Assembly (NCBI GenBank): GCA_944326155.1
Contig: CALVCV010000012.1
Coordinates: forward strand, 1-43,842
From: an uncultured Bacilli bacterium
GTDB taxonomy: Bacteria > Bacillota_I > Bacilli_A > ML615J-28 > CAG-313
Direction of reading: 5' to 3'
DNA: 43,842 nucleotides
Shown here in pieces: positions 117 through 42,492 of the stretch. The first letter of the stretch is position 1, and every line of letters begins with the position of its first letter. Both the position numbers and the translations under genes were made by a program. A model generated the notes under the pieces. The model was given only the letters and a program-made list of their open reading frames with translations. It made no database searches and was not told where the DNA came from.

Positions 117-192
117 GGAGGATTAGCTCAGCTGGGAGAGCATCTGCCTTACAAGCAGAGGGTCGGCGGTTCGAGCCCGTCATCCTCCACCA
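117..192 (+). tRNA. tRNA-Val (TAC)
   Basis: Cloverleaf with acceptor GGAGGAT/ATCCTCC, anticodon loop CTTACAA on a TCTGC/GCAGA stem, and encoded CCA. First tRNA of the cluster after 5S rRNA. Confidence 0.97.
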
Positions 193-196
193 TTGT

Positions 197-272
<76 letters not shown>

Positions 273-282
273 TCTAGTGAAT

Positions 283-358
283 GTCCTCGTAGCTCAGTTG
301 GCAGAGCAACTGACTTTTAATCAGTGGGTCGGACGTTCGAATCGTCTCGGGGACACCA
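283..358 (+). tRNA. tRNA-Lys (TTT)
   Basis: Acceptor GTCCTCG/CGGGGAC with one G-T pair, anticodon loop CTTTTAA, encoded CCA. Confidence 0.97.
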
Positions 359-379
359 TCTTTTATCACGTATAAACAT

Positions 380-466
380 GCCTGAGTGGCGGAATAGGTA
401 GACGCGCAGGACTTAAAATCCTGTGGTAGCAATACCGTGCCGGTTCGACCCCGGCCTTAGGCACCA
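380..466 (+). tRNA. tRNA-Leu (TAA)
   Basis: Class II tRNA with a long variable arm. Acceptor GCCTGAG/CTTAGGC, anticodon loop CTTAAAA on CAGGA/TCCTG, encoded CCA. Confidence 0.96.
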
Positions 467-478
467 AATTTTACACGT

Positions 479-554
479 GGGTCCATAGCTCAGCTGGGAG
501 AGCACCTGTTTTGCACGCAGGGGGTCGAGGGTTCGAGTCCCTTTGGATCCACCA
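479..554 (+). tRNA. tRNA-Ala (TGC)
   Basis: Acceptor GGGTCCA/TGGATCC, anticodon loop TTTGCAC on CCTGT/GCAGG, encoded CCA. The acceptor has G-T at pair 3-70, the alanine identity element. Confidence 0.96.
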
Positions 555-576
555 TTTTTATAATAGATGGTTCTGT

Positions 577-653
577 GGCGGTGTAGCTTAGTTGGCTATA
601 GCGTCCGGTTCATACCCGGAAGGTCGGGGGTTCAAGTCCCTCCGCCGCTACCA
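577..653 (+). tRNA. tRNA-Met elongator (CAT)
   Basis: Acceptor GGCGGTG/CGCCGCT, anticodon loop TTCATAC, encoded CCA. The sequence closely follows the B. subtilis elongator tRNA-Met. G4 and G5 in the acceptor separate it from the lysidine tRNA-Ile2 that follows. Confidence 0.93.
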
Positions 654-665
654 TTTTGAAAGTAT

Positions 666-742
666 GGACCTTTAGCTCAGTTGGTCAGAGCCCCCGGCTC
701 ATAACCGGTTGGTCCTAGGTTCGAGTCCTAGAAGGTCCACCA
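666..742 (+). tRNA. tRNA-Ile2 (CAT, lysidine-modified)
   Basis: The anticodon is CAT, but the body (acceptor GGACCTT/AAGGTCC with C4 and C5) matches B. subtilis tRNA-Ile2, whose wobble C is modified to lysidine by TilS. The slot Met-Ile-Ser-fMet-Asp-Phe is the same as in the B. subtilis trnB cluster. The first anticodon-stem pair (27-43) is a C-T mismatch. The Ile assignment is inferred from body similarity and order. Confidence 0.85.
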
Positions 743-769
743 TTCGATATATTATAATTAAAAAAATAC

Positions 770-860
770 GGAGAAATACCCAAGTCTGGCTGAAGGGATC
801 GGTCTTGAAAACCGACAGGGTGTAACAGCCGCGGGGGTTCGAATCCCTCTTTCTCCGCCA
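770..860 (+). tRNA. tRNA-Ser (TGA)
   Basis: Class II tRNA with a long variable arm, acceptor GGAGAAA/TTTCTCC, discriminator G, anticodon loop CTTGAAA, encoded CCA. Confidence 0.96.
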
Positions 861-870
861 TTTTTCTCAT

Positions 871-946
<76 letters not shown>

Positions 947-949
947 TAG

Positions 950-1025
950 GGTTCCATGGTGTAGAGGTTAACATGCCAGTCTGTCACACTGGAGATCGCG
1001 GGTTCAAGTCCCGTTGGAACCGCCA
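950..1025 (+). tRNA. tRNA-Asp (GTC)
   Basis: Acceptor GGTTCCA/TGGAACC, discriminator G, anticodon loop CTGTCAC on CCAGT/ACTGG, encoded CCA. Confidence 0.97.
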
Positions 1026-1032
1026 TTATTTT

Positions 1033-1108
1033 GGCTAGGTAGCTCAGTCGGTAGAGCAATGGACTGAAAATCCATGTGTCGCCGGTTCGATCCCGGCCCA
1101 AGCCACCA
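1033..1108 (+). tRNA. tRNA-Phe (GAA)
   Basis: Anticodon loop CTGAAAA on stem ATGGA/TCCAT, encoded CCA. The acceptor halves GGCTAGG and CCAAGCC pair at six of seven positions; the fifth pair is A-A. The rest of the cloverleaf looks normal, so the gene is probably functional. Last tRNA of the cluster. Confidence 0.94.
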
Positions 1109-1709: not shown

Positions 1710-1756
1710 TGAAGTATATATATGAAATAGTCAAGTAAAAGTAGACACAAAAAAAT
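1710..1756 (+). repeat. IS terminal inverted repeat (orfB end)
   Basis: Pairs with 3034-3080. The first 19 bases (1710-1728) and the inner 16 (1741-1756) are identical to the reverse complement of the other end; the 12 bases between differ but keep the same length. Confidence 0.88.
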
Positions 1757-2572
1757 TTATATAAACCCTTGTTCAGTTCTATATTGAATGGGGGTTTTAT
1801 ATTTTAATGAATAAGCTAATCTTTGCGTATTGAAATAATTAATGTAATCTTTTATTGCCACATTAATATCATCTGCTAAATATATCTTAAAATCTTTATA
1901 TAATTCATTCTTTATCCAACCATTTAAAGATTCAATGACTGGATTATCAGTAGGTGTTCCTGCTCGACTCATTGATCTTTTTATGGTATAATTATCTAGA
2001 AGCTTATTGAAGGCTTTTGAGGAATATACTGTGCCCTGATCTGTGTGGAAGATAGTTTCAAGGTCTTTATATCCTCTTTTTATTTTAGCTTCTAAAAAAT
2101 CTTTACACGCGCTAAAATGGTTTGGCACTCCTGCACCATGTTTTGAAGGGCTTACATCTGAACCAATGATTTCATTATTGTAAACATCTACATAAAAAGT
2201 CCAATCATAGCTTTTACCTCTACAGTGAATTATAGTTGTATCAGACACAACAATTTGAAAAGGTCTAGATGGATTAAAGTTTCCTCTTACTATATTTGGA
2301 TACGTTATACTTTCTTCACCTCTTGGAACATATGTTTTACGAGCTTTTGAGCGTATATTTAAACTTTTAGATACTTTATGGCATAAATTATCACTGAATA
2401 ACCATCCAGTTTTATTTCTAATATTTTGTGCTATAGCTCTATATCCATAAGTTGAATGATGCTTATGGATATTTTTTATTTCATCAGCCAGTGTTATTCT
2501 ATTCTTTTGATAGTTATTTATTGTTCCTTTACGGTTTAGCCATTTATAGTATCCGCTTCTTGAAACATCCAT
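1757..2572 (-). CDS. IS3-family transposase OrfB (DDE integrase domain)
   Basis: Catalytic half of the transposase. From the ATG used here it is 271 aa with a DDE triad at D111 (SDTT), D178 (HTDQG) and E214 (IESLN); D178 and E214 are separated by exactly 35 residues, as in the IS3 family. The open frame continues upstream without a stop to about 2690 (encoding EIVETL...LCIVMDVSRSGYYKW, the conserved OrfB N-terminus). The functional product is therefore probably an OrfAB fusion made by -1 frameshifting rather than this ATG-initiated form. The stop lies just inside the left inverted repeat. No disabling mutation is visible. Confidence 0.9.
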   Translation of the reverse strand: MDVSRSGYYKWLNRKGTINNYQKNRITLADEIKNIHKHHSTYGYRAIAQNIRNKTGWLFSDNLCHKVSKSLNIRSKARKTYVPRGEESITYPNIVRGNFNPSRPFQIVVSDTTIIHCRGKSYDWTFYVDVYNNEIIGSDVSPSKHGAGVPNHFSACKDFLEAKIKRGYKDLETIFHTDQGTVYSSKAFNKLLDNYTIKRSMSRAGTPTDNPVIESLNGWIKNELYKDFKIYLADDINVAIKDYINYFNTQRLAYSLKYKTPIQYRTEQGFI

Positions 2573-2619
2573 TACTATACAAAGTGATTTTATATTAAAC
2601 TCCCGAGAAAGAGTCTCTA

Positions 2620-2985
2620 CTATTTCGTATTCTTTTCTGATAATTTCTCTAGGGCTAAAAGAACATCCTCCTCGGAGTACCCTTTTTTTAATCGTTCATT
2701 CTCGATTCTAAGTAACATATTTTCATATTCAAGTTGTTCAATAGGTGTTAATTCTTTTCGCCTTGAATATTTAGCTAATGGATTACCAGGTTTACGCTTA
2801 TTTTCTAAAGCTTTTATTCCACCTTCATTATAACGTTTAACCCAATTACTAATCATCCCTTGAGATATTCCTAATTCATTCATTAATTGAGACATGCTTT
2901 TTTCACCAGCAAGTACCCTTTTTATAATGTTATATTTTTCTTCACTTGACCATTCTTTATTTTGACCACCTTTAGATCTTCCCAT
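2620..2985 (-). CDS. IS3-family transposase OrfA (helix-turn-helix)
   Basis: 121 aa DNA-binding half of the transposase. The helix-turn-helix lies around residues 15-55 (SMSQLMNELGISQGMISNWV), followed by a leucine-zipper-like helix near 80-100 (LEYENMLLRIENERLKK). An RBS (AAAGGAG) sits 8 bases before the ATG. The codons TTA AAA AAA GGG near residue 100 hold a seven-A slippery run, and the orfB frame is -1 relative to orfA there. OrfA would bind the element ends and, fused to OrfB, carry out transposition. Confidence 0.92.
   Translation of the reverse strand: MGRSKGGQNKEWSSEEKYNIIKRVLAGEKSMSQLMNELGISQGMISNWVKRYNEGGIKALENKRKPGNPLAKYSRRKELTPIEQLEYENMLLRIENERLKKGYSEEDVLLALEKLSEKNTK
2683..2689 (-). 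other. programmed -1 frameshift slippery site (A7)
   Basis: On the minus strand, seven A residues in the orfA frame (A AAA AAA, then GGG) form a classical heptamer. Shifting to -1 here gives an open frame straight into OrfB. A possible stimulatory hairpin (GGGTACTCC...GGAGG...AGCCC) follows directly. Confidence 0.75.
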
Positions 2986-3033
2986 AATATCATCTCCTTT
3001 ATTATATTATAACATAAGAAAAAACGTAAACAC

Positions 3034-3084: not shown

Positions 3085-3225
3085 TTATTTATCATCTATA
3101 TTCCTATTTTCTTTTTTTAAATAAGGACATGTTTTAGAATTAATAATACAATTTCCATTGTAATAACAGTCACTACATTTTTGATTCTTAGTAGTTTTTA
3201 TTTTGTTGGTAAATTTAATTTCCAT
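3085..3225 (-). CDS. small Cys-containing protein (46 aa), unknown
   Basis: A 46-codon frame starts at an ATG preceded by a strong AGGGGG ribosome binding site. It has four cysteines: C17-x2-C20-x5-C26-x6-C33 in a Lys/Asn-rich background. The spacing could hold a zinc or iron-sulfur site, but I recognise no family. The stop lies only five bases outside the IS end, so the C-terminus may have been altered by the insertion. It is divergent from the hydrogenase-like gene at 3328. Support is the RBS and Cys pattern only. Confidence 0.5.
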   Translation of the reverse strand: MEIKFTNKIKTTKNQKCSDCYYNGNCIINSKTCPYLKKENRNIDDK

Positions 3226-3304
3226 AATATGTTAACCCCCTATACTTATTATGAACCATTTCAAAAAAGTTATGTAAATAAAAATATAAAAAAAGTCTAT
3301 ATGT

Positions 3305-3322
3305 TATAATATTAATGGGGTG
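3305..3322 (+). promoter_or_regulatory. -10 box and RBS for the 3328 operon
   Basis: TATAAT at 3305-3310 and GGGGTG at 3317-3322, six bases before the ATG. The short gap implies a very short leader. No good -35 box is visible. Confidence 0.55.
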
Positions 3323-3327
3323 ATAAA

Positions 3328-4440
3328 ATGTCTGTTTATGTGAATCATAAAGAATATGAATATATTGAGAATATCAGTATTTTTAATTTTATAAGACATC
3401 ATCAATTATTTTTACCATTTATGTCTGATAATGAGTTAGACGAATTATGTTATGTAGAAGTTATTGGTATGGATAATCTTGTTTCAGCTAAAACAACAAA
3501 TTTAGAAGATGGCATGCAAATTTTAACGCAAACCGAAAAAATATATACCTATTTAGAAACAGTTTTATCATATCCTAAAAGGGACATTACAAGTTTTATG
3601 CGTACAATGTCATTGGATGAAACAGCATATAATATTTTACTATGTGCTCCTGAATGTTATGAAAAATGTCTTGAAACTTATAAAGACAAAGGTTTTAATG
3701 ATATTATTAGTCTAAAACTTTTTCAAATGGTTAGATACTTAGAACTTACTCATGAATTCATGAAGAAAATAGCAAATAAATTAGATTATTTAAATTATAA
3801 TAAATTATTAGTTTTAGAGCCTTCTATTATAGAACCTCCTCTTAACATCACATCAAGTTTAAAACCTGCAGAAGAAATAGCCAGCATCTTACTTAAAACC
3901 TATTATAAACAAATATTAAAGGTAACAAATGATATTCATATTATATATGTAACAAATGATATAAAAGAATTTTTTTGTCAAGATACTAAAAGTAATTTAT
4001 ATTTGAGTATGATTGATGAAGTTGTGTTAGAAAATAATTTTGAAATTACAAACACAAATAGCCTATATGATGGAAAAATTACAAACGAAATATATAAAAA
4101 AAAGACAACTAATTTAACTATTAGCTGTGATTATTCTACAATTTTTAAGATTTTAAGAAAGATGGGTTTAAAAGAAGAATCTTTAGAGGTATTTGATAAA
4201 GATCAAGGAACATCATGTTTTGTAACTTATAAGGGACTTAGTTTAAAAATTTTATTTACAACTCATCTATTTACCAAAGAAGTTCTTGATACTTTAGACT
4301 ATGATTTGGTCGTAATTTGTTATCATGAATATCGGTTAAATGAAGAATATAATGAAATACTAACTGATTATAACTTAAATCACTTATATAAAAAACTATT
4401 AATTTTTCCAGGACATAGCGATATTTTTAGGAGAAAATAA
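3328..4440 (+). CDS. degenerate [FeFe]-hydrogenase-like protein without cluster cysteines
   Basis: 370 aa, not a family I can name, but it reads along its length like the HydA encoded at 35199 in the same window. Residues 3-72 resemble the N-terminal [2Fe-2S] domain (CYVEVIGMDNL here, CVVEIVGMRSL in HydA), but three of the four ligand cysteines are gone. The His-Cys and double [4Fe-4S] modules are absent. Residues 100-130 (YNILLCAPE...KGFNDI) match HydA YLVATFAPA...LGFDDI. Residues 177-193 (SLKPAEEIASILLKTYY) match HydA SCKSPQQMQGSMIKHYY. H-cluster positions TSCSPGW and MPCIAKK become LEPSIIE and VTNDIKE; only a VIC near residue 331 may retain one L3 cysteine. It cannot be a normal hydrogenase and may be a scaffold or regulatory pseudoenzyme. 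Its stop overlaps the next start by one base (TAATG), so the two are co-translated. Confidence 0.8.
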   Translation: MSVYVNHKEYEYIENISIFNFIRHHQLFLPFMSDNELDELCYVEVIGMDNLVSAKTTNLEDGMQILTQTEKIYTYLETVLSYPKRDITSFMRTMSLDETAYNILLCAPECYEKCLETYKDKGFNDIISLKLFQMVRYLELTHEFMKKIANKLDYLNYNKLLVLEPSIIEPPLNITSSLKPAEEIASILLKTYYKQILKVTNDIHIIYVTNDIKEFFCQDTKSNLYLSMIDEVVLENNFEITNTNSLYDGKITNEIYKKKTTNLTISCDYSTIFKILRKMGLKEESLEVFDKDQGTSCFVTYKGLSLKILFTTHLFTKEVLDTLDYDLVVICYHEYRLNEEYNEILTDYNLNHLYKKLLIFPGHSDIFRRK

Positions 4441-6356
4441 TGAATATTTCTAAAACGTTATTTAAAAATTTATCTAGATGTCATAATTTCATGGCGCTAT
4501 ATGATTTATATATAAATAGAAGTTTTCATGATATCAAAGCTATCAATACCAAGAAAAAAAGTACGGAGATTATGAAAGATATTTTTTTATTAAATAATAA
4601 TTTATTTGATAAAAAAAAGGAAAAAATCGAAGAACTACTTAGTGAAATGTTTGATGAAAATACTGGTGAAGACTTATTAAATTTAAAAAGTGATCAACTT
4701 GAGGCTTTTGCAAGTACTTTCACGGAGGTTGAAAGATTAGCAAGTTTATATATTGAACAAGTTTTTAAACAACCAGTTCTTGCTGCAGTAAACACATATG
4801 AACAAAAAAAATATGCTTATAAAGAAGAAGGCAATACTTTTTATTGCTACTTGGATTGTTATTTTGAAGATGAAAAAAATATTCAAATTTTCGAGGTTAA
4901 AGCAACTACATCCAAAAAGTTTGATGACTTTGGAATTACAATTAATAAAAAGCACTATGATTTTTTTACTTTTAATAATGGTATTATGGAGTATCAAGAT
5001 TTAACAACAAAGTTTACGGGAAAAGACCAAGAAAAAGTAAAACAAAAAGTTCAAACTTTACTAGATAAATTTTCTGATTGTGGTAAGTATATATATGATA
5101 TTAGTGTTGAAAGACATATTATTGAAAATAGTTTAAAAAAAGTTGGTGCTTTACATAAAAACATATCTTATTATTTGGTTGTTTTAAATGCCAATTATAC
5201 CTTTAGTGGTGTATATAAAGAAGGCGCACCTTGTTATGATATTGATAAAAATGGGGAGGCTTTGTTTAAAATTTATGATATGGATTTCCTTACTAGTGCA
5301 TATCAACCATTAATTGAAAATGAAAAAAAAGAAATAATTAAAAATAGTCAATTTTTGACGCTTGAAGATTCAATATTAGGTAAATGCTGCGAGTATAAAA
5401 AAACTACAGCTTGTAAATTTCACAAAATTTGTATGAAAGAAGTATTACAAGATGGTTCTATTTTAGAATATTTTAAAAAGCAATATGCGTTTAGCATCCC
5501 TACTATTTATCCTAAAAAAAGACAATATCTAGATGTATATGACTTAATCAATCAAGGATATCATAAAATTGATGATGTAAGGCCATATTTAACCAAAATG
5601 GATAATATCGTGCAATATGAGTGTTATGTTAATCAAAAAATATATATAGATCTTGTAAGAATAAACAAAGCCCTAGAAGGAATAAGTTATCCTATTTATT
5701 ATTTGGATTTTGAAAGTTATAATTCGCCATTACCTCGTTTTAAAGGAGAACACCCTTATACTCAGTCTTTATTCCAATATTCTTTGCATTTGGAAAAAGA
5801 ACCAAATATATGTGATTTGGTAAAAGATCATCATGAGTTTTTGGCTAAAGATCATTATGATCATCGTTTAGAGTTAATTGAACATTTAATACAAGATATT
5901 GATCTTACAAAAGGTGGATCGGTAATTGTATATAATAAATCTTTTGAAAAAACAAGATTAAAAGAATTAAGTTATATTTTTCCTCAATATAAAAAAGAAT
6001 TAGATGATATTAATAATCATATTTTTGATTTGTTAGAAGTATTAAAGGGCACAAAAAATCTAGATAAATTACCTAATCATCCGTCATTTACTTATTATAA
6101 TAATAAAATGCATGGATCTTTTTCAATAAAAAAAGTATTACCACTATTTAGTAATTTATCTTACAATGATTTAGAAGTCAAAAATGGTACAGAGGCCATT
6201 TTAGCCTATGGAATGTTACCCTACTATACAAAAAAAGAATATGAAGAAAAATATTTAGCATTAAGTTTCTACTGTAGACAAGATACTTGGGCAATGGTTG
6301 AAATTTTAAAAGGTTTAAGACAAATGATAGATAAAAAAATCAATCTAAATGATTGA
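4440..6356 (+). CDS. DUF2779 protein: Cas4/RecB-like nuclease plus DnaQ-like domain
   Basis: 638 aa. The N-terminal half looks like a PD-(D/E)xK nuclease: D139 followed by E152-V-K154 (FEVKATT). Cysteines at C14 and C316/C317, C325, C331 are laid out like the iron-sulfur cysteines bracketing Cas4 and AddB nuclease cores. The C-terminal ~220 residues match DUF2779 with a DnaQ-type exonuclease pattern: D423-F-E425 (YLDFES), an N499 region (IVYNKSFEKTRL), D530 and a final D615 (YCRQDTW). It probably acts on nucleic acid ends; the substrate is unknown. It is translationally coupled to the hydrogenase-like gene upstream. The pair is delimited by a promoter at 3305 and a terminator overlapping its stop. 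Confidence 0.85.
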   Translation: MNISKTLFKNLSRCHNFMALYDLYINRSFHDIKAINTKKKSTEIMKDIFLLNNNLFDKKKEKIEELLSEMFDENTGEDLLNLKSDQLEAFASTFTEVERLASLYIEQVFKQPVLAAVNTYEQKKYAYKEEGNTFYCYLDCYFEDEKNIQIFEVKATTSKKFDDFGITINKKHYDFFTFNNGIMEYQDLTTKFTGKDQEKVKQKVQTLLDKFSDCGKYIYDISVERHIIENSLKKVGALHKNISYYLVVLNANYTFSGVYKEGAPCYDIDKNGEALFKIYDMDFLTSAYQPLIENEKKEIIKNSQFLTLEDSILGKCCEYKKTTACKFHKICMKEVLQDGSILEYFKKQYAFSIPTIYPKKRQYLDVYDLINQGYHKIDDVRPYLTKMDNIVQYECYVNQKIYIDLVRINKALEGISYPIYYLDFESYNSPLPRFKGEHPYTQSLFQYSLHLEKEPNICDLVKDHHEFLAKDHYDHRLELIEHLIQDIDLTKGGSVIVYNKSFEKTRLKELSYIFPQYKKELDDINNHIFDLLEVLKGTKNLDKLPNHPSFTYYNNKMHGSFSIKKVLPLFSNLSYNDLEVKNGTEAILAYGMLPYYTKKEYEEKYLALSFYCRQDTWAMVEILKGLRQMIDKKINLND

Positions 6357-6503: not shown

Positions 6504-7814
6504 TTATTTTACTTTATTTTTAATTTTTGCATATAAATCATAACTATCTGTTTTAGTTATTTCAATATTAATTAAATCGCCAGGATGAATATCTTCTATC
6601 ATATTAGAATATATATATATATAACCGTCCACATCGTCTGGTGCATAAGCATAATTTCTTACACAATAATACTTTTTATTTCCATTATAACTATCTACTA
6701 TTGCAAGATAGGTTTTACCAATAAATTGTTTATTAATTACTTTTAAGAGTTGATTTTGAAAACGCATAATTTGATCACGTCTTTCATTCATTATTTCTTG
6801 AGGAATTTTAGGAAGCATCTTTTGGCTTGGTGTATCATCTTCATCTGAATATGTAAAGACACCTAAACGATTAAAACGTTGTTTTTTAACAAAATCTAGT
6901 AAAATATCAAAATCTTCATTGGTTTCTGATGGAAAGCCAACAATTAAAGTTGTTCTAATAATGACATGAGGAATTCTTTTTCTAATTGTTTCAAAAAGAC
7001 TTTCTAATTGGCTTTTTGTTGATCTTCTATTCATTTTTTTAAGGATTCTATCAGATGCATGTTGAATAGGAATATCAAAATATTTAGCAACTTTATCGTT
7101 ATTAGCAATTTCATCAATTAATTCGCTGGTAATTTCATCAGGATAAAGATATAACACACGGATAATTTTAATTTCATCAATTAAAGAAATTTGATGAATT
7201 AAGTCATGAAGACGGCGATGGTCTTTTTGATCAGTTCCAAATCGTGTGGTATCTTGACCAATAAGTGTAATCTCTTTTACCCCTTTTGAGGCTAAATTTT
7301 TTGCTTCGACAATCAAACTATCAAAATCACGACTTTTAAATGAACCTCTAATCAAAGGAATGGCGCAATAACTACAACGATTATTGCAACCATCAGAAAT
7401 TCTCAAATAAGCACTATGGGGTAAAGTTGTAATAACTCTATTTTGATAATCCATTTTATAGGATTTATTTGTCGCAAGAAGTCGTTTAAAAAGTTCATCA
7501 ATATGATTATAATCACGAATTGGAAAGTATATGTCAACTTCAGGGATACTTTCTTTTAAATCAGATAGATATCTTTCTACAAGACATCCCATTACAATCA
7601 CCGTTTTTCCTTTTTTGTTTTCGGTAACATCTAAAATAGTATCAATGGCTTCTTTTTTGGCACTTTCAATAAAACCACAAGTATTGATAACAATGATGTC
7701 TGCTGTTTTGATATTATTGGTAAGTTCTAAGTTATATTTTTGGGCAACGCCTAAAAAGAGTTCCGAATCAATTAGGTTTTTAGCACATCCTAGGGAAATC
7801 ATTCCAAGTTTCAT
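6504..7814 (-). CDS. rimO: ribosomal protein S12 methylthiotransferase RimO
   Basis: 436 aa radical-SAM enzyme that adds a methylthio group to an aspartate of ribosomal protein S12. The N-terminal UPF0004 domain has the auxiliary-cluster cysteines C10 (LGCAKN, with the RimO-type NLIDSE following), C46 (NTCGF) and C77 (MGCLVE). The radical SAM motif is C143-x3-C147-x2-C150 (GCNNRCSYC). A C-terminal TRAM domain is expected in the last ~65 residues. Length is normal for the family. The ATG follows an AGGAGA RBS. The GCAKNLIDSE signature favours RimO over MiaB or MtaB. It is divergent from pduL. Confidence 0.95.
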   Translation of the reverse strand: MKLGMISLGCAKNLIDSELFLGVAQKYNLELTNNIKTADIIVINTCGFIESAKKEAIDTILDVTENKKGKTVIVMGCLVERYLSDLKESIPEVDIYFPIRDYNHIDELFKRLLATNKSYKMDYQNRVITTLPHSAYLRISDGCNNRCSYCAIPLIRGSFKSRDFDSLIVEAKNLASKGVKEITLIGQDTTRFGTDQKDHRRLHDLIHQISLIDEIKIIRVLYLYPDEITSELIDEIANNDKVAKYFDIPIQHASDRILKKMNRRSTKSQLESLFETIRKRIPHVIIRTTLIVGFPSETNEDFDILLDFVKKQRFNRLGVFTYSDEDDTPSQKMLPKIPQEIMNERRDQIMRFQNQLLKVINKQFIGKTYLAIVDSYNGNKKYYCVRNYAYAPDDVDGYIYIYSNMIEDIHPGDLINIEITKTDSYDLYAKIKNKVK

Positions 7815-30054: not shown

Positions 30055-30083
30055 TTGTCAAAAGTAGCATGGTGTGTTATAAT
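30055..30083 (+). promoter_or_regulatory. promoter of the hydrogenase operon
   Basis: TTGTCA (30055-30060), 17-base spacer, TATAAT (30078-30083), 28 bases before hydC. The ~90 bases upstream contain several TTAG/CTAA half-sites, but I see no convincing Rex or Fnr palindrome. Confidence 0.82.
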
Positions 30084-30110
30084 AAATATGTTGATTTTAG
30101 GAGGTTAAAA

Positions 30111-30593
30111 ATGTCAGTTAAATTAGAAATGTCTGAGGATCAAATCAAATTATTAAAACAAAAGATTGCCGAACATAAACAAAAACCAGGTCCTTTAATG
30201 CCCACACTTCATGATGCACAAACCATTTTTGGTTGTATTCCTCTTGAAGTACAAAAAATTATTTCAGAAGAATTAGGTGAAAGTATTGCAAAAATCAATG
30301 GCGTAGTTACTTTCTATTCTAGATTTACGTTAGAACCTAAGGGAAAACATGTTATTGGTGTTTGTCTTGGTACTGCTTGTTATGTACGTGGGTCACAAGC
30401 TGTTATCGATGAATTTAAAAAATTATTAAACATAAAGTCTAATCAAACAACTGATGATGGACAATTTACATTACTTGAAACCAGATGTATAGGCGCTTGT
30501 GGTCTTGCACCCGTATTTACATTTGATGATGAAGTATATGGCACATCAACAGTTAAAACAGCAAGAGAAGTTTATAATAAGAATATAGGATAA
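30111..30593 (+). CDS. hydC: HydC/NuoE-like [2Fe-2S] subunit of NAD-linked [FeFe] hydrogenase
   Basis: 160 aa from the ATG at 30111, preceded by TAGGAGG. Thioredoxin-like ferredoxin with ligands C85-x4-C90 (CLGTAC) and C126-x3-C130 (CIGAC), after a helical N-terminal region (LMPTLHDAQTIFGCIP) typical of NuoE. It passes electrons between the HydB flavin and the rest of the complex. First gene of the operon that ends with hydA. Confidence 0.94.
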   Translation: MSVKLEMSEDQIKLLKQKIAEHKQKPGPLMPTLHDAQTIFGCIPLEVQKIISEELGESIAKINGVVTFYSRFTLEPKGKHVIGVCLGTACYVRGSQAVIDEFKKLLNIKSNQTTDDGQFTLLETRCIGACGLAPVFTFDDEVYGTSTVKTAREVYNKNIG

Positions 30594-30601
30594 TTCTTTT
30601 T

Positions 30602-30976
30602 ATGACAATTAATAAAATTGTTGAAGTAATTAGGGGTAAAGAATTGACTCCACCAATTAAACCTGCTAATTTTGAATTAAAATATGCATTTAGTGGTGAT
30701 TTAATGAGTGATGCTTTAATGGTACTACGAGAAGCGCCAGAAGGTTTTTGCGAAGCAGGAATCTTAATAACAGGAAATGTTACGATGCAAAGTATACGAA
30801 CAGCAGAAATGCTAGATTTTGCTGCAATTCTAATTACAAGAGGAAAAGTACCAACGAAACAAGTCCTAGATCAAGCCTATAATTCAGGTATTATTGTATT
30901 AGGTACAAATGATGTGTCATTTACTGTTTGTGGTAAATTATATAGTGCAGGAATCAAAGGACTAAGTGATTTATAA
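30602..30976 (+). CDS. DRTGG-domain protein 1
   Basis: 124 aa. Resembles DRTGG domains (AFSGDLMSDALMVL...GILITGNVTMQSIRTAEMLDFAAILITRGK.PTKQVLDQA...IIVLGTND.SFTVCGKLY), which occur as putative ligand-sensing modules. Paralogous to the gene at 31401. It ends at the A of the next start codon (1-base overlap). Confidence 0.8.
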   Translation: MTINKIVEVIRGKELTPPIKPANFELKYAFSGDLMSDALMVLREAPEGFCEAGILITGNVTMQSIRTAEMLDFAAILITRGKVPTKQVLDQAYNSGIIVLGTNDVSFTVCGKLYSAGIKGLSDL

Positions 30977-31392
30977 TGCAAGCAACAGGAAAATTTGTCA
31001 TTGAATCAATGGATTTAGATAATGCTGGTAACGCATCTAGCACCATTAAAAAAATGTTAACAGAAGCAGGTGTATCTAAAAGTATTATTAAAAGAGTATC
31101 GATAGCGATTTATGAAGCAGAAATAAATGTTGTTATTCATTCTTATGGAGGAACTTGTACATATTATATTGATGATGAAAAAATAAGAGTAGTTTTTGAA
31201 GATACAGGTCCAGGAATTGAAGATATTGAACAAGCATTAGAACCGGGTTTTTCTACTGCTAACAACCAAGCAATTACTTATGGCTTTGGGGCAGGCATGG
31301 GACTGATGAATATTAAAAATGCAAGTGATGAATTTGACATTACATCTTCACACTTGGGAACAACACTAGATATAAAAATATATTTTAATTAG
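30976..31392 (+). CDS. GHKL ATPase, RsbW/SpoIIAB-like
   Basis: 138 aa HATPase_c domain alone. N-box EAEINVVIHS, G1 box FEDTGPGIED, G2 box GFGAGMGLMNI. Resembles anti-sigma-factor serine kinases of the RsbW/SpoIIAB/RsbT type rather than sensor histidine kinases, as there is no dimerisation/phosphoacceptor domain. In this operon it may phosphorylate or remodel an accessory protein; no STAS partner is encoded in the window. Confidence 0.87.
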   Translation: MQATGKFVIESMDLDNAGNASSTIKKMLTEAGVSKSIIKRVSIAIYEAEINVVIHSYGGTCTYYIDDEKIRVVFEDTGPGIEDIEQALEPGFSTANNQAITYGFGAGMGLMNIKNASDEFDITSSHLGTTLDIKIYFN

Positions 31393-31400
31393 AGGAAAAT

Positions 31401-31724
31401 ATGCGAGTAATTGATATTTTAAATAAAATTGAGGGGAAGATTTTAACGAATGATCAATCTGATGTTTTTTTTGAAGGAATTTATGCTGGTGATTTGCTTA
31501 GCAATGTTATGTCACATGCAAGAGAAAACAATCTTCTTTTAACCATTATGTCAAATATGAATACGATTGCGGTGGCATGTTTATTAGATTTACCAATAAT
31601 TTTATTTGCTGAAGGAGTAATCCCAACTGATGAAATGATAGATAAAGCTAATGAAGAAAAGATTATGCTGATTAGTAGCAAATATAGTGTAGTGGATATT
31701 ATTCGCAAAATATATGGAATATGA
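31401..31724 (+). CDS. DRTGG-domain protein 2
   Basis: 107 aa, similar to the product of 30602 (shared AGDLLSNVM / SGDLMSDAL, and a P-T-DEMIDKA block), so probably a tandem-duplicated DRTGG module. The stop overlaps the PHP start by four bases (ATGA). RBS GAGGAAA. Confidence 0.78.
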   Translation: MRVIDILNKIEGKILTNDQSDVFFEGIYAGDLLSNVMSHARENNLLLTIMSNMNTIAVACLLDLPIILFAEGVIPTDEMIDKANEEKIMLISSKYSVVDIIRKIYGI

Positions 31725-32437
31725 AATATTATTATGATTTACATATTCACTCAGCTTTATCACCATGTGCTGATGTTTTAATGAGTCCCAATAATATTTT
31801 AAATATGGCCTCATTAAAAGGCCTCAATATTATTGCAATAACCGATCATAATTCTTGTTTGCAATTAGATGTTTTTGAAGAATTAAAAGATAGTTATGAT
31901 ATGTTAGTTATACCAGGTGTTGAAGTTGAAGTCAAAGAAAAATATCATGTGGTATGTTTGTTTAAAACCTTTAGTAAGGCTAAAATGTTTCAAAAAACAT
32001 TAGATTTTTACTTAGATAAAAAAATGCATGATGAAGTCATATATGGTGAGCAAAATTTGTTTGATGTTTTTGATGATGTTATAAGCAATTATCAAATTAG
32101 TTTAATGGGCTCATCTAATATTAGTCTACTTGACTTAAGAAAAATTATTACCGAATTAGATGGAATAATGATTCTTGCTCATATTGAAAAATATAAAGAC
32201 AATATATTTGAAAAAATGCAAACCATCTATTGTGATATTTTTGATACAATTGAAGTTAATTTTTCTTATGATATAACAAAAATACAGCCCCAATTAGATA
32301 AACTTTCTTATACCATTCTTAGAAATTCTGATGCACATCTAATTACTGACATCTTAGAGCCAGTAGAGACGATTGAGTTAGCAAATTTAGATATAGAAGC
32401 TTTATTTTCCAAGTTAAAGGAGAGAAAGCATGGTTGA
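31721..32437 (+). CDS. PHP-domain phosphoesterase
   Basis: 238 aa. PHP metal motifs: D6-L-H8-I-H10 (HIHSALSPCAD), ITDHNS, IPGVEVEV, ILAHIEK and the C-terminal NSDAH. These are the conserved ligands of the PHP trinuclear site, so it is probably an active phosphoesterase. The substrate could be a phosphoprotein or small phosphate. Overlaps the genes on both sides. Confidence 0.87.
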   Translation: MKYYYDLHIHSALSPCADVLMSPNNILNMASLKGLNIIAITDHNSCLQLDVFEELKDSYDMLVIPGVEVEVKEKYHVVCLFKTFSKAKMFQKTLDFYLDKKMHDEVIYGEQNLFDVFDDVISNYQISLMGSSNISLLDLRKIITELDGIMILAHIEKYKDNIFEKMQTIYCDIFDTIEVNFSYDITKIQPQLDKLSYTILRNSDAHLITDILEPVETIELANLDIEALFSKLKERKHG

Positions 32438-32963
32438 TTTATCACTACATATCTTAGATGTAGCAAGTAATGCTTTTAAAGCAAATGCTACATTAGTGAA
32501 AATTGATATTGAGGAAAAAGAAGAATATATCCATATTACCATTGAAGATAATGGCTGTGGTATGAATGAAGAGGAATTAAAAAAGGTTACCAATCCCTTT
32601 TTTACATCGCGGACGACTAGAAAAGTAGGATTAGGCATCCCCCTTTTTAAACAAACTTGTGAACAAACAGGTGGGAGTTTAACGATTACCTCTGAAGTAA
32701 ATGTGGGTACATGTATAGATGCGTGGATGAATATGCATAGTATAGATGCTATTCCTCTTGGGGATATTGGCGAAAGTATTTTTGTTTTAGTAACCAATCC
32801 TTATGATGTGGATGTGGTAGCAACTATTCGTTTTAAAGAACAAGAAAAAGTTCAATTTAAACTTGATACAAGGGAAATCAAAATAATTTTAGATGGCGTA
32901 CCTTTTAGTGAACCTACTATTATGGTTTGGCTAAAAGAATATATAAAAAGCAATTTATCTTAA
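32430..32963 (+). CDS. GHKL ATPase 2 (histidine-kinase-like ATPase domain)
   Basis: 177 aa. HATPase_c with N-box LDVASNAFKANA, G1 IEDNGCGMNEEEL, F-box NPFFTSR, and G2 VGLGIPLFKQTCEQTGG. The F-box and layout are closer to MutL or sensor-kinase ATPases than to the RsbW type at 30976. No transmitter His domain; the ~60-residue C-terminal tail is unrecognised. Overlaps the PHP gene by eight bases. Confidence 0.85.
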   Translation: MVDLSLHILDVASNAFKANATLVKIDIEEKEEYIHITIEDNGCGMNEEELKKVTNPFFTSRTTRKVGLGIPLFKQTCEQTGGSLTITSEVNVGTCIDAWMNMHSIDAIPLGDIGESIFVLVTNPYDVDVVATIRFKEQEKVQFKLDTREIKIILDGVPFSEPTIMVWLKEYIKSNLS

Positions 32964-33002
32964 AAATAATTTTGGATTTGAAAAATAAAAAGAGGAGGAG
33001 CT

Positions 33003-33389
33003 ATGAAAACTTTAGAAGAGTTAAAGAAAATTAGAGAAGAAGCTGCCAACAAGATTAATCTTAGAACAGCAAAAAATGGTTATCGTATTGTTGTTGGTAT
33101 GGCTACATGTGGAATTACTGCTGGTGCAAGACCGGTATTAGCAGCCTTTGTAGACCAAGTTGCAGCAAAGCATTTGGATAATGTTACAGTTACACAAGTT
33201 GGATGTATAGGAGAATGTGCTGTTGAACCAATTGTTGAAGTATATGATACCGAAGGCAATCGTACAATTTATGCCGAAGTACATGAGCCAGATGTTGAAA
33301 CAATAATAAATGAGCATATCATGGGTGGTAAAGTAGTAATTGAAAAAACTATTGAAGTGATAAAAAGCAAAAAAGAAGAGGTACTTTAG
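33003..33389 (+). CDS. HndB-like thioredoxin-fold ferredoxin of the hydrogenase
   Basis: 128 aa. Thioredoxin-like [2Fe-2S] family. Cysteines C36 (MATCGITAGAR) and C68-x3-C72 (GCIGEC) are present; the second cysteine of the usual first pair is replaced, as I recall for HndB-type proteins. It is an accessory electron-transfer or structural subunit of NAD(P)-linked hydrogenases. RBS AGGAGGAG. Three bases before hydB. Confidence 0.85.
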   Translation: MKTLEELKKIREEAANKINLRTAKNGYRIVVGMATCGITAGARPVLAAFVDQVAAKHLDNVTVTQVGCIGECAVEPIVEVYDTEGNRTIYAEVHEPDVETIINEHIMGGKVVIEKTIEVIKSKKEEVL

Positions 33390-33392
33390 AAG

Positions 33393-35186
33393 ATGTTATT
33401 ACGTGCACAAGTATTAGTATGTGGTGGGACAGGTTGCCTATCATCAAAATCTAAACAAATTAAAGAAGCTTTTGTTGAAAACATAAAAGCATTAGGACTT
33501 GATAATGAGATTCAAGTTATTCAAACAGGATGTTTTGGTCTATGTGAAAGAGGACCAATTGTTATTGTTTATCCTGATCAAACTTTCTATTCACATGTAG
33601 CAGTAGAAGATGTACCTAAAATTTGTTCAGAACATCTTTTAAAGGGTCGTATTTATGAACCTAAAGCCTATAAAGAAGCAACAGCAGATGAACTTGCAAA
33701 AATTAAATCTTTTGGTGAAGTTGGCTTTTATAACAAACAATTAAGAATTGCTCTTCGTAATTGTGGAGTAATTAATCCATTTGATATTAATGAAGCAATT
33801 GGTAAAAATGCTTATCAAGCTTTAGGAAAATGTTTAACTGAATATACTCCAGTAGAAGTTATAGATATTATTAAAAAATCTGGACTTCGTGGCCGTGGTG
33901 GTGGTGGTTTTCCAACAGGCTTAAAATGGGAACTTTGTGCTAAAAATCATGCTGATCAAAAATATGTAATTTGTAATGCCGATGAAGGCGATCCAGGCGC
34001 ATTTATGGATCGTTCTGTTTTAGAAGGCGATCCTCATAGTGTTATAGAAGCAATGGCTATTGCAGGATATGCAATTGGTGCTACAATGGGATATGTATAT
34101 ATTCGTGCTGAATATCCTGTTGCTGTTGAAAGACTTGAATTTGCCATTAAACAAGCAAGAGAATATGGTCTTCTAGGCAAAGATATTTTTGGTAGTGGTT
34201 TTGATTTTGATATTGATGTAAGACTTGGTGCTGGTGCCTTTGTTTGTGGTGAAGAGACAGCTCTTATTGCATCTATTGAAGGTGAACGCGGTATGCCAAG
34301 AAATAAACCGCCATTTCCTGCTCTTAAAGGACTTTGGGGTAAACCTACAATCATTAACAATGTTGAAACTTTAGCGAATGTTCCTGTCATTATTTTAAAT
34401 GGTTGGGAATGGTTCTCTTCAATTGGAACAGAAAAGTCAAAAGGAACCAAAGTATTTGCTCTCGGTGGTAAAATTAAGAATACTGGACTTGTTGAAATCC
34501 CAATGGGAACAACCCTTAGAGAAGTAATTTATGATATAGGTGGTGGATGTCCTAATGGTAAAGCCTTCAAAGCTGTTCAAACTGGTGGACCATCAGGTGG
34601 ATGCTTAACAGCTAAACATCTAGATACTCCTATTGATTATGATAACTTAACTGCCCTTGGCTCAATGATGGGTTCAGGTGGTATGATTGTAATGGATGAA
34701 AATAACTGTATGGTCGATGTTGCTCGTTTTTTCTTAGACTTTACTGTTGATGAATCTTGTGGTAAATGTACACCTTGTCGTGAAGGTACAAAGAGAATGC
34801 TTGAAATTTTAAATAAAATTATTCATGGTCAAGGTACTTTAGAAGATATTACTGCTCTTGAAGAACTTGCACATATGATTAAAGATTCATCACTTTGTGG
34901 TCTTGGTCAAAGTGCTCCTAACCCTGTTTTATCAACGCTTGCTAACTTTAGAGATGAATATATCGCTCACGTTGTTGACAAAAAATGTCCTGCTGGTGTT
35001 TGTAAAGCTTTGCTTACATATGTTGTGACTGATGCTTGTATTGGTTGTACAAAATGTAAGAGAAATTGTCCTGCAGATGCAATCACTGGTGAGGTTAGAC
35101 AAAAACATTATATTGATCCTACAAAATGTATTAAATGTGGTAGTTGTATTCAAGGTTGCCCTAAAGGTGCAATCATTGTTAAATAG
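33393..35186 (+). CDS. hydB: HydB/NuoF-like flavin subunit of NAD-linked [FeFe] hydrogenase
   Basis: 597 aa. N-terminal thioredoxin-like [2Fe-2S] domain (C10, C15, C47, C51). FMN/NADH-binding NuoF core with GLRGRGGGGFPTG (~165-178), NADEGDPGA and GAGAFVCGEETALI. SLBB region, then the [4Fe-4S] motif CGKCTPC (C456, C459, C462). C-terminal double [4Fe-4S] ferredoxin (CIGCTKCKRNCP from C549, and CIKCGSCIQGCP). It takes electrons from NADH and, in bifurcating enzymes, from ferredoxin, for H2 production by HydA. Length and domain order fit HydB of trimeric bifurcating hydrogenases. Confidence 0.96.
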   Translation: MLLRAQVLVCGGTGCLSSKSKQIKEAFVENIKALGLDNEIQVIQTGCFGLCERGPIVIVYPDQTFYSHVAVEDVPKICSEHLLKGRIYEPKAYKEATADELAKIKSFGEVGFYNKQLRIALRNCGVINPFDINEAIGKNAYQALGKCLTEYTPVEVIDIIKKSGLRGRGGGGFPTGLKWELCAKNHADQKYVICNADEGDPGAFMDRSVLEGDPHSVIEAMAIAGYAIGATMGYVYIRAEYPVAVERLEFAIKQAREYGLLGKDIFGSGFDFDIDVRLGAGAFVCGEETALIASIEGERGMPRNKPPFPALKGLWGKPTIINNVETLANVPVIILNGWEWFSSIGTEKSKGTKVFALGGKIKNTGLVEIPMGTTLREVIYDIGGGCPNGKAFKAVQTGGPSGGCLTAKHLDTPIDYDNLTALGSMMGSGGMIVMDENNCMVDVARFFLDFTVDESCGKCTPCREGTKRMLEILNKIIHGQGTLEDITALEELAHMIKDSSLCGLGQSAPNPVLSTLANFRDEYIAHVVDKKCPAGVCKALLTYVVTDACIGCTKCKRNCPADAITGEVRQKHYIDPTKCIKCGSCIQGCPKGAIIVK

Positions 35187-35198
35187 GAGGTCTTCTGC

Positions 35199-36995
35199 AT
35201 GGAAAATTTAGTAACAATTACAATAAATGATAAAACGATTCAAGTGCCATCTAACTACACGATTATGCAAGCAGCTGATTCGGTTGGTATTTTTATTCCC
35301 CGTCTTTGTTTCTTAAAAGATTTGAATGAGAATGCTTCTTGTCGTGTTTGTGTAGTTGAAATTGTTGGTATGCGTTCTCTTAAAAATTCATGTACAGTTG
35401 AAGTTGGTTCAATTCTTAATCGTGAAGGAACTGCTACTATCTGTACAAACTCTAAACGTGTACGAAATGCTGTTCATCATACATTGGAGTTGATTGCAGC
35501 AAGCCATCGCTTCGATTGTTGGAAATGTCCACGTGAACGAAATTGTGAACTTCTTACCCTTCTTAGAAGATATTCTATTGATAATAAAATAGCTGAATCT
35601 GGACATTTTGTTAAAAAACTTCCAATTTTAAATCAAAGTGATGCAATTGTTTTTGATTCAGCAAAATGTATTCTTTGTGGAAGATGTATTGCAGCATGCG
35701 AAAAATTAGCAGGCACAAGCGTTCTTAACTTTAATGAAAGAGGCTTTGTTACTTGCGTTGGTACAGCTTTAAATCATGATATTGAAGATTCAGGTTGCAT
35801 CTATTGTGGTAAATGTATTGGTGCATGTCCAACAGCTGCTATTCATGAAAAAGAACAAATTGATTTAGTAGAAGAAGAACTTGATAATCATGAAAATTAT
35901 CTTGTTGCAACTTTTGCTCCAGCTGTTCGTGCCGCAATTGGTGAAGAATTTGACAACCCAATTGGTACAAATTGTGAAGGTAAAATTTATGCATCTTTAA
36001 AAGCTCTTGGTTTTGATGATATTACTGATGTTAATTTTGGTGCTGATCTTACAATTATGGAAGAAGGAACTGAATTTGTACATCGACTAAAGAAAGCTTT
36101 GAATGGCGAAAAAACAGTTTTACCAATGATTACCAGTTGTTCACCTGGTTGGATTCGTTATATTGAACATTATTATCCCGAATATTTACCTAATCTTTCA
36201 AGTTGTAAATCGCCTCAACAAATGCAAGGATCAATGATTAAACACTATTACGCTTCTAAAATTGGTGTTGATCCTCATAAAATTAAAGTTGTATCTATTA
36301 TGCCTTGTATTGCTAAAAAATACGAAGCAAATCGTCCTGAAATGGAAAACGATGGCATAAGAGATATTGATTATGTATTAACAACTAGAGAATATGCTCG
36401 TCTTGTAAAACGATTTGGTATTGATTTTAATGCCCTTGAAGATTATATTCCTACAAGTCCACTTGCTAAATATACAGGTGCCGGTGTGATTTTTGGCGCA
36501 ACAGGAGGTGTAATGGAGGCAGCATTAAGAACTGTTTCTCATATTCTTGATCCAGAAAATGAAGATAAAATTGATTTTACAGTTGTACGAGGAGTTGAAA
36601 ATGGTATTAAAGAAGCAACGATTAAGATTGCTGGATTAGATGTAAATATCGCAGTTGCACATGGTAGTGTAAATTTACCTGAATTGTTCAAACGTATTAA
36701 AGAAGGTAAAAAACAATATCATTTTATTGAAGTAATGGCATGTACTGGTGGATGTATCAATGGTGGTGGTCAACCAATTGTGCCTGCTAAAATTCAAGAA
36801 TCTTGTGATGTAAGAGCTTTAAGAGCGCAAGTTTTATATCAAATTGACAAAGATACGCCATTACATAAATCACATGAAAATCCATCTATTATTGAAGCAT
36901 ATAAAGAATTCTTAGGTGAACCTAATAGTTCACTTGCACATAAGTTACTTCATACAACTTACTCTGCTAAAGAAAACTTTTCTAAATCCAAATAA
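35199..36995 (+). CDS. hydA: HydA, catalytic subunit of NAD-linked [FeFe] hydrogenase
   Basis: 598 aa. N-terminal [2Fe-2S] (C37, C48, C51, C65). His-Cys [4Fe-4S] with H103-x3-C107-x2-C110-x5-C116. Two [4Fe-4S] ferredoxin motifs (C157/160/163/167 and C200/203/206/210). H-cluster domain with L1 ITSCSPGW (C314), L2 MPCIAKKYE (C370) and L3 EVMACTGGCINGGGQP (C515, C519), then a ~70-residue tail with the small-subunit-like helices. Makes H2 at the H-cluster. L1 reads TSCSPGW where C. pasteurianum CpI has TSCCPGW. The maturases HydE, HydF and HydG are not in this window. RBS GGAGG. Confidence 0.97.
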   Translation: MENLVTITINDKTIQVPSNYTIMQAADSVGIFIPRLCFLKDLNENASCRVCVVEIVGMRSLKNSCTVEVGSILNREGTATICTNSKRVRNAVHHTLELIAASHRFDCWKCPRERNCELLTLLRRYSIDNKIAESGHFVKKLPILNQSDAIVFDSAKCILCGRCIAACEKLAGTSVLNFNERGFVTCVGTALNHDIEDSGCIYCGKCIGACPTAAIHEKEQIDLVEEELDNHENYLVATFAPAVRAAIGEEFDNPIGTNCEGKIYASLKALGFDDITDVNFGADLTIMEEGTEFVHRLKKALNGEKTVLPMITSCSPGWIRYIEHYYPEYLPNLSSCKSPQQMQGSMIKHYYASKIGVDPHKIKVVSIMPCIAKKYEANRPEMENDGIRDIDYVLTTREYARLVKRFGIDFNALEDYIPTSPLAKYTGAGVIFGATGGVMEAALRTVSHILDPENEDKIDFTVVRGVENGIKEATIKIAGLDVNIAVAHGSVNLPELFKRIKEGKKQYHFIEVMACTGGCINGGGQPIVPAKIQESCDVRALRAQVLYQIDKDTPLHKSHENPSIIEAYKEFLGEPNSSLAHKLLHTTYSAKENFSKSK

Positions 36996-37004
36996 TAAAT
37001 AAGA

Positions 37005-37044
37005 AAAAAGCCCTAAAAACAGCATTTTGTTTTTAGGGCTTTTA
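37005..37044. terminator. bidirectional terminator between hydA and the Crp-family gene
   Basis: AAAAGCCCTAAAAAC pairs with GTTTTTAGGGCTTTT around a short loop, with A and T tracts on both sides. It serves the converging hydA and Crp-family transcripts and overlaps the Crp-family stop codon. Confidence 0.92.
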
Positions 37045-37662
37045 AATACTTTGATTTAAAGTAAGATAAGTTTTTTGCTTTTCTTTTTCTTTTTTAATAA
37101 TATGCTTTTTTTCAAGAAAGGAAAGACTTCTTGAAACAGATGGCCTTGGTAAAGATAAAATTCTTGCTAAATTGCTAACTGATTCAATATAAATCTTTTT
37201 GGTATTTTTTTGCTTTTGTTCTAATTTTAGATAATAAATAATACGGTCTTCAATATTTTTGTGTTTAAAAAGTTTATTTTCTTGTTTAATATATAAGGCT
37301 TTTGTAGAAAGAAGTTCTAAGTAGGAAGCAAGAAACTGGTAGTTTGTTTTAAACAAATAAAAGAGATTTTCTTTACTAATATAACGAATGAGCGTTTTCT
37401 TTAAACATATACCATGACCCAAATATCGATTGTGTTTGGAAAACGCCAAAATATCCCCAAAATAAGCCTCATTTTGCAAAATAGTAATAGTTTCTTCTTT
37501 TTCTGTATAAGTTAATTCAATTACATCAATTTGACCATATATTACCATTCCTACTACATCACAAATCTGTTCTTCGTTAAAAACAACATCTTTTGCTTTA
37601 TAAGATTTAAGATAAGTATAAGTATTTAATTCATCATTTGTTAAATTATCAAATATATTCAT
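37042..37662 (-). CDS. Crp/Fnr-family transcriptional regulator
   Basis: 206 aa. Cyclic-nucleotide-binding-like beta barrel (~10-120) and a C-terminal helix-turn-helix (~158-195: VSNLARILSLPRPSVSRSLSFLEKKHIIKK). It lacks the N-terminal cysteine cluster of Fnr; Cys at ~28 and ~106 are the only ones I see, so an oxygen-sensing iron-sulfur site is unlikely. It is divergent from the solute-binding lipoprotein gene with a palindrome between them, and convergent with the hydrogenase operon. It could control either; effector unknown. Confidence 0.9.
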   Translation of the reverse strand: MNIFDNLTNDELNTYTYLKSYKAKDVVFNEEQICDVVGMVIYGQIDVIELTYTEKEETITILQNEAYFGDILAFSKHNRYLGHGICLKKTLIRYISKENLFYLFKTNYQFLASYLELLSTKALYIKQENKLFKHKNIEDRIIYYLKLEQKQKNTKKIYIESVSNLARILSLPRPSVSRSLSFLEKKHIIKKEKEKQKTYLTLNQSI

Positions 37663-37685
37663 AAATTTAGTTTCCCTTTTTGGTT

Positions 37686-37711
37686 ATATTGTAACAAATG
37701 TTACACAATAT
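37686..37711. promoter_or_regulatory. palindromic operator in the divergent Crp-family/transporter promoter
   Basis: TGTAAC (37690-37695), AAAT spacer, GTTACA (37700-37705). The outer bases ATATTGT and ACAATAT add a second, offset symmetry. The form resembles Crp/Fnr/HcpR-type sites. A TATAAT for the plus-strand gene lies at 37727-37732, putting the palindrome centre about 41-42 bases before the expected start site. Confidence 0.7.
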
Positions 37712-37783
37712 AATTGTAGCATATGATATAATATTTTAGCAAATAATAAACAATATAAAATTACACAAAAATTAGGAGGTTTT

Positions 37784-42124: not shown

Positions 42125-42492
42125 GGGTCTGTATTTTGGTTTCGACGGGATTTTTGAATTGATGTAAGCACGTCGTGGTTATGCACGTTAAAACATGAGA
42201 TTTAAATAAACGCAAATAATACAAATTACGCTTTCTGCTAGGCTTAATTAGCAGAAAACTACCAAAAGTGGTTTTATCTTTTATCATTACTTGTCTACGT
42301 GTAGGATAAAGGAAAGAGAGTAGGCTTTGAAAAAATATTGCTTTTCTAGATATTTTTTTAAGAAAAAAAGAAATAGTAGTCATTTATTTTGTTTATTCAT
42401 AAATGATTATGAAATTTTAAAATATACTAAACGTGTAGAAAGCAGAATGGATGAAGTTTCGGACCCGAGTTCGACTCTCGGCAGATCCACCA
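42125..42492 (+). ncRNA. ssrA: transfer-messenger RNA (tmRNA)
   Basis: 368 nt. The ends GGGTCTG (42125-42131) and CAGATCC (42482-42488) form the tRNA-like acceptor, followed by encoded ACCA. The 5' TTTGGTTTCGACGGG and the 3' GTTCGACTCTCGGC T-arm are conserved. The tag frame starts at the resume codon GCA (42212) and reads A-N-N-T-N-Y-A-F-C before TAG (42239-42241). The stop enters a hairpin (42232-42240 with 42249-42257). With the alanine from the charged tmRNA the tag would be AANNTNYAFC. It rescues stalled ribosomes with SmpB. Confidence 0.96.
42212..42241 (+). CDS. tmRNA proteolysis-tag reading frame
   Basis: Nine codons and a TAG stop, ANNTNYAFC. The first part parallels the E. coli tag (A)ANDENYALAA, but LAA is replaced by FC. 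The resume codon was chosen from the conserved ATAAACGCAAAT context. Confidence 0.7.
   Translation, partial: ANNTNYAFC

Follow-up and report, generated by a model that had tools for sequence, protein, structure and literature searches.

A paralogue of the [FeFe]-hydrogenase subunit HydA that lacks the metal ligands is encoded directly upstream of a DUF2779 protein, a predicted DNA or RNA nuclease, and the two genes form a genuine operon, with a one-base overlap, a conserved extended -10 element and a terminator hairpin. The pair lies in the window, by which we mean the whole stretch of 43,842 nucleotides analysed here (contig C12 of a 1.44-Mb genome). It is plausible, if still short of probable, that the nuclease has the dead hydrogenase fold as an accessory or regulatory subunit. 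This reading fits best because the spacing of the genes is tight, the paralogue never occurs without DUF2779, constraint persists without catalytic residues and an extra gene accompanies the pair. The features of the locus are collected in Table 1.

Table 1 Features of the locus, in window coordinates
Feature	Position	Strand	Basis or remark
Cluster of 11 tRNA genes, the last tRNA-Phe	117..1108	+	syntenic anchor upstream of the locus
IS3-family element	1740..3010 (about)	-	insertion separating tRNA-Phe from the small ORF; outside the unit
Gene for 46-aa four-cysteine protein	3085..3225	-	divergent from the pair, outside the IS
Extended -10 promoter element of the pair, TATGTTATAAT	3300..3310	+	in 7/7 adjacent-pair loci
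HydA-like paralogue without metal ligands, 370 aa	3328..4440	+	ORF, profile, predicted structure
Paralogue, N-terminal 2Fe-2S-type beta-grasp region	about 3328-3558	+	3/4 ligand Cys replaced
Paralogue, H-domain shell	about 3556-4317	+	no H-cluster ligand
Paralogue, SSU-like C-terminal helix	about 4366-4437	+	
DUF2779 protein, 638 aa	4440..6356	+	ORF, PF11074
Terminator hairpin, overlapping the nuclease-gene stop codon	6330..6366	+	folding against shuffles
RimO-like gene	6504..7814	-	syntenic anchor downstream of the locus

The paralogue keeps the hydrogenase H-domain fold. Its predicted structure is compact (pLDDT 80, pTM 0.80) and aligns with TmHydA (7p8n) with a Z of 18.8 and an rmsd of 4.0 over 265 residues. 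The alignment behind this model held four canonical HydA rows; independent support for the fold comes from profile A2, which was made from six paralogues, five of g1 and one of g6, with HydA and g2 rows absent (g1 to g6 denote genera of the window's family). A2 reaches clostridial hydrogenase I at E 6.9e-13 and also matches hydrogenase-like frames of many genomes. With the window paralogue, Pfam gave only a sub-threshold Fer2_4 match and the NCBIfam FeFe-hydrogenase models match weakly; the g6 member scores 29.1 with PF02906 against a gathering score of 22.1. Fold and profile match bear out the origin from a redox enzyme proposed in an earlier, sequence-only reading of this DNA.

Fold and domain order are those of group A HydA (e.g. 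HydA of HydABC). Unlike a catalytic [FeFe]-hydrogenase, the window member has no PF02906 match and the paralogue has no H-cluster cysteine; the corresponding columns of alignment A4 (324, 380, 528 and 532) hold Cys in none of the eight members. How the accessory cluster sites were lost differs from genus to genus, while all eight members retain the C-terminal helix and the shell of the H-domain. The g1 and g6 members keep the N-terminal beta-grasp region and are missing the whole ferredoxin domain; in g2 eight ferredoxin cysteines are kept and the N-terminal domain is gone. At the N-terminal 2Fe-2S site every g1 member has replaced three of the four cysteines; the fourth is kept in three of five. 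The window paralogue still has eight cysteines, two of which, C106 and C114, are shared by all five g1 members. K179, a lysine of the active-site region with a role in HydA, is kept in seven of the eight. Because the H-cluster cysteines, the loop with the last two of these and the accessory ferredoxin domain are all gone in g1, the paralogue cannot be a hydrogenase by known chemistry.

A protein of this kind might still act on a hydrogenase, as a subunit of the NADH-dependent HydABC complex that, in a regulatory or structural role, competes with HydA or docks beside it, the adjacency to DUF2779 being inherited. Each of the eight carriers also holds canonical HydA (in the window an ordinary HydA and its operon are found at 30069-36995, 31 kb from the paralogue), and the retained beta-grasp region of g1 and g6 would suit such a role. 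Of 19 loci in the sister family, 9 have hydA on the same strand as DUF2779 and 1.7-6.6 kb upstream of it. As this family often keeps these genes close, HydA and DUF2779 were neighbours in ancestors, before the paralogue decayed, and the pairing may be inherited gene order. We nevertheless consider a HydABC subunit rather unlikely. Five genomes of the family have HydA and no paralogue (G006, G007, G010, G011 and G014), the paralogue is seen only near DUF2779 and never in a hyd operon, and the N-terminal domain is entirely absent in g2.

The paralogue and DUF2779 genes share one base, at TAATG, as the sequence-only reading had stated, and the promoter and terminator that it proposed for the pair in common were both recovered. 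The extended -10 element, read by eye, precedes the paralogue gene at each of the seven loci where the pair is adjacent. The hairpin has 16 pairs and a folding energy of -15.1 kcal/mol (z -6.5), with none of 200 shuffles equally stable; it was not listed by a G+C-stem scan. A consensus promoter scan of the region gave no excess over shuffles (25 found, shuffle mean 31.0). The window has seven occurrences of TATGNTATAAT, where shuffling predicts 0.66. We also note a TATGTAA motif 5′ of the extended -10 (window 3226-3327), which recurs in loci L008, L009, L074 and L075; being present in five g1 intergenic regions between divergent genes, it is a possible operator.

The second protein matches PF11074 (DUF2779) with 134.2 bits against a gathering cut-off of 23.3. 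Its N-terminal PD-(D/E)XK region contains C14, C317, C325 and C331 together with D139/E152/K154, and its exonuclease domain (residues 416-638, about 5685-6353) contains D423, E425, D530, D615 and Y611. All 18 aligned DUF2779 proteins share, without variation, the four cysteines, the D/E/K of the PD-(D/E)XK core and the exonuclease D/E/D/D and Y. Fold and DEDD residues identify the C-terminal domain as a PolB-type 3′-5′ exonuclease; in the model (pLDDT 88) it aligns with Pol alpha (8g99) with a Z of 14.6 and an rmsd of 2.6 over 176 residues. The nuclease-domain model gave weak matches to RecE and EXO5 (E 0.05-0.07), and a sequence-only structure search with DUF2779 gave no matches. The invariant cysteines, the exonuclease residues and the Pol alpha match agree with the earlier description of this protein as Cas4/RecB-like plus DnaQ-like.

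As judged from the alignment, all 18 proteins have a Cas4/AddB-type layout, with one N-terminal and three C-terminal cysteines around the PD-(D/E)XK core. The same arrangement is described for Cas4/AddB in an excerpt of PMC3466216, and DUF2779 shares with the Cas4/AddB/EXO5 nucleases the placing of these invariant cysteines around the D/ExK residues. It differs from them in its spacing (C317-x7-C325-x5-C331) and in the fused 3′-5′ exonuclease domain, and its metal is a prediction. An excerpt of PMC3985635 shows that an architecture of DUF83-like PD-(D/E)XK plus exonuclease had already been predicted for DUF2779; in this, and in the PF11074 match, the protein resembles the UU173-like DUF2779 proteins of Mollicutes. 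Unlike these, it scores below the cut-off of the NCBIfam UU173 model (52.9 bits against 225) and has a partner gene, which among the bacteria searched occurs only in the window's family. In Mycoplasma bovis, according to part of PMC7373297, a DUF2779 transposon mutant grew poorly with host cells.

Divergent from the pair is the gene for a small four-cysteine protein, present at all seven adjacent-pair loci, with a Shine-Dalgarno-like sequence before most starts. The sequence-only reading had noted an IS flanking the pair with a small Cys-containing ORF. The IS3-type element is indeed present, and the genome has further near-full copies of it on contigs C19 and C9; the association with the ORF did not hold. 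The element ends before the ORF, and six other genomes have the ORF at this position, which rules out that it is borne by the IS. The small Cys ORF is thus newly recognised as a conserved gene beside the pair and not IS cargo. The proteins share the motif K-C-x-D-C-x-Y-x3-C-x6-C-x-Y, in which K16, C17, D19, C20, Y22, C26, C33 and Y35 are invariant. Between G001 and G002 the gene has 10 synonymous and 6 non-synonymous differences (pS 0.43, pN 0.06). Searched against 395 genomes of the class, a profile of the small protein found only the seven adjacent-pair genomes below E 1e-20, the next match being partial at E 8e-4; as the profile was built from those seven loci, this result shows exclusivity, not discovery. 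Because the gene is conserved only at adjacent-pair loci, the unit probably comprises three genes. No family or structure match to the small protein was found in Pfam, NCBIfam or PDB sequences. It is likely an Fe-S or Zn binder, and its C-x2-C-x5-C spacing presumably resembles the Cas4/AddB triads.

The paralogue may be compared with eukaryotic Nar1/CIAO3/IOP1, which likewise has the hydrogenase fold without hydrogenase activity; an Fe-S nuclease as partner would be a further, hypothetical, point in common. The excerpted text of PMC12621388 presents Nar1 as a proposed Fe-S trafficking factor with two cluster sites and a C-terminal Trp. By analogy the metal-less fold would place an Fe-S (or Zn) staple into the Cas4/EXO5-like nuclease, or read or gate it, with the four-cysteine microprotein as carrier or sensor. 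If so, the three genes would together form a nuclease module of a new kind, linked to metal or redox state. Besides the fold of Nar1 itself, the Cas4/AddB-type cysteine arrangement of DUF2779 (as in the PMC3466216 excerpt), the exclusive encoding of the four-cysteine protein at these loci and the eight ferredoxin cysteines of g2 are in keeping with this bacterial parallel, which we judge unlikely all the same. The g1 and g6 members lack the cysteines of both site 1 (H-cluster-like) and site 2 (FS4A-like) as the excerpt describes them; of the cluster cysteines g2 keeps only the eight of the ferredoxin. In place of the terminal Trp, which g6 also lacks, g1 members end in FRRK, FRRF, FRRFV or CRR. 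Moreover, most DUF2779 genomes have the same nuclease cysteines and no paralogue. Within a limited library, a literature search found nothing on [FeFe]-hydrogenase pseudoenzymes or ligand-lacking relatives and nothing relevant on Anaeroplasma hydrogenase.

DUF2779 was matched in 38 of 60 genomes; loci were fetched for 36 of these, the partial matches in G045 and G057 being left out. The paralogue adjoins DUF2779 in all five g1 genomes and in two g2 genomes, with gaps of -4 to +2 bases; among 290 pairs of same-strand neighbours from the fetched loci, 16% are spaced as tightly. At the g6 locus (G009) two ABC-transporter genes lie between the paralogue, which is upstream, and DUF2779, and the small four-cysteine ORF was not found there. 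The neighbourhood check proposed earlier therefore finds the pair conserved: two genera supply seven genomes in which the genes are adjacent, and in an eighth genome they are nearly so, which makes this no single-strain rearrangement. Carriers make up 8 of 15 genomes in the family and 8 of 43 in the order. All eight hold DUF2779, which also occurs without the paralogue; genera g3, g4 and g5 keep DUF2779 with the paralogue absent, so the latter is not essential for the nuclease.

Searching 395 class genomes with A2 matched 117 at E 1e-3. A wider spread of the paralogue was considered and rejected, the listed non-carrier matches being short segments, most of them within 550-940-aa frames, with the appearance of ordinary hydrogenases. 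A2 finds the g2 member of G005 at E 1.5e-7, via its C-terminal part; as the profile has no g2 row, the g2 proteins belong to the same family as the g1 and g6 paralogues. The other g2 member (G013) was missed by A2 and found with profile A1, which includes its own row. A scan across genome contigs gave five paralogue loci, all in genomes already known to carry it.

The tRNA cluster lies upstream of the unit in G001, G002, G005, G013 and G009, and in the window the unit is flanked by this cluster and by the RimO-like gene. In G010 and G014 about 240-250 bases separate tRNA-Phe from RimO, and paralogue, DUF2779 and small ORF are all absent; these are empty sites. They are no proof of a functional bond, because one deletion can remove neighbouring genes. 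No DUF2779 match was obtained in G010, G012 or G014, and G012 is also without a close RimO locus. An operon of nuclease and partner whose presence varies within one genus could serve in anti-phage defence or work like a toxin-antitoxin module, DUF2779 being the effector, and the sequence-only reading had raised defence. This now appears very improbable. None of the four proteins tried matched a PADLOC model at E 0.1, PHROGs gave no phage family below E 1e-3 except ferredoxin (with the g2 member), the same tRNA/RimO site is used across three genera, and DUF2779 is widespread in relatives. A role in DNA repair or nucleic-acid turnover is possible.

Both genes are under purifying selection. By the Nei-Gojobori method dN is 0.15 and dS 0.86 for the paralogue (dN/dS about 0.17) and 0.09 and 0.91 for DUF2779 (about 0.10), values that refer to the closest pair, G001 and G002, other pairs being near saturation. 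The paralogue evolves far faster than HydA. In the hydrogenase tree its eight members lie on one side of a branch (100/100), their place being unsure because of long branches and odd composition. The DUF2779 tree groups g1 with g2 (100/100) and places g6 with g3-g5. Because it splits g6 from g1/g2, the trait needs two changes: either it was gained once, early, with later losses, or it was gained twice. The location after tRNA-Phe, which g6 shares, would favour the early gain.

The loss of all catalytic ligands, the genus-specific domain losses and the fast evolution could mark a slowly decaying relic, a hydA duplicate that persists before a useful nuclease gene as a hitch-hiker carrying its promoter. 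We hold this to be decidedly unlikely, given that the ORF is open in all eight genomes, that dN/dS is low in the closest pair, that 56 of 370 positions are invariant in g1, that length and overlap are conserved and that a compact fold is predicted.

On the accessory-subunit reading, a copy of HydA would have lost its redox function and survived as a subunit that binds DUF2779 in an accessory or regulatory role, the two proteins being made from one promoter by coupled translation. DUF2779, with its Cas4/AddB-like PD-(D/E)XK domain, putatively metal-stapled, and its PolB-type exonuclease domain, would do the chemistry on nucleic acid, and the dead hydrogenase fold may fold, anchor or gate it. 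The divergent four-cysteine protein would serve the same three-gene unit. If correct, a hydrogenase fold without any cluster ligands has been reused as the partner of a bacterial nucleic-acid enzyme, in parallel with eukaryotic Nar1, and DUF2779, a common unstudied nuclease of Mollicutes, gains its first candidate partner. The data suggest that in these wall-less gut bacteria an old metabolic fold was reused as a nuclease helper.

Several other features were observed. ARAGORN places a tmRNA at 42125-42492 of the window with a very short tag, ANNTNYAFC; the terminal Cys is unusual for a degradation tag, and the prediction may be in error. In the region 30069-39467 of the window, the NADH-dependent [FeFe]-hydrogenase operon has DRTGG-like and PHP-like genes between its subunits, and Crp-like, solute-binding and permease genes come after it (37042-39467), a series often ended by DUF2779 in the sister family. 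Locus L012:5599-9194 (G044, contig C22) encodes two tandem HydA-like proteins that lack H-cluster ligands at several positions and keep the accessory cysteines; they lie within a NuoE/NuoF-like and Rnf-like cluster beside cytochrome bd-like genes and are apparently another case of hydrogenase reuse without an H-cluster. At L106:3155-11315 (G000, contig C8) an AdhE-like gene precedes two further hydrogenase-like genes, of which one apparently encodes a PAS domain, and a gene of PP2C-like type; the cluster resembles those of sensory hydrogenases.
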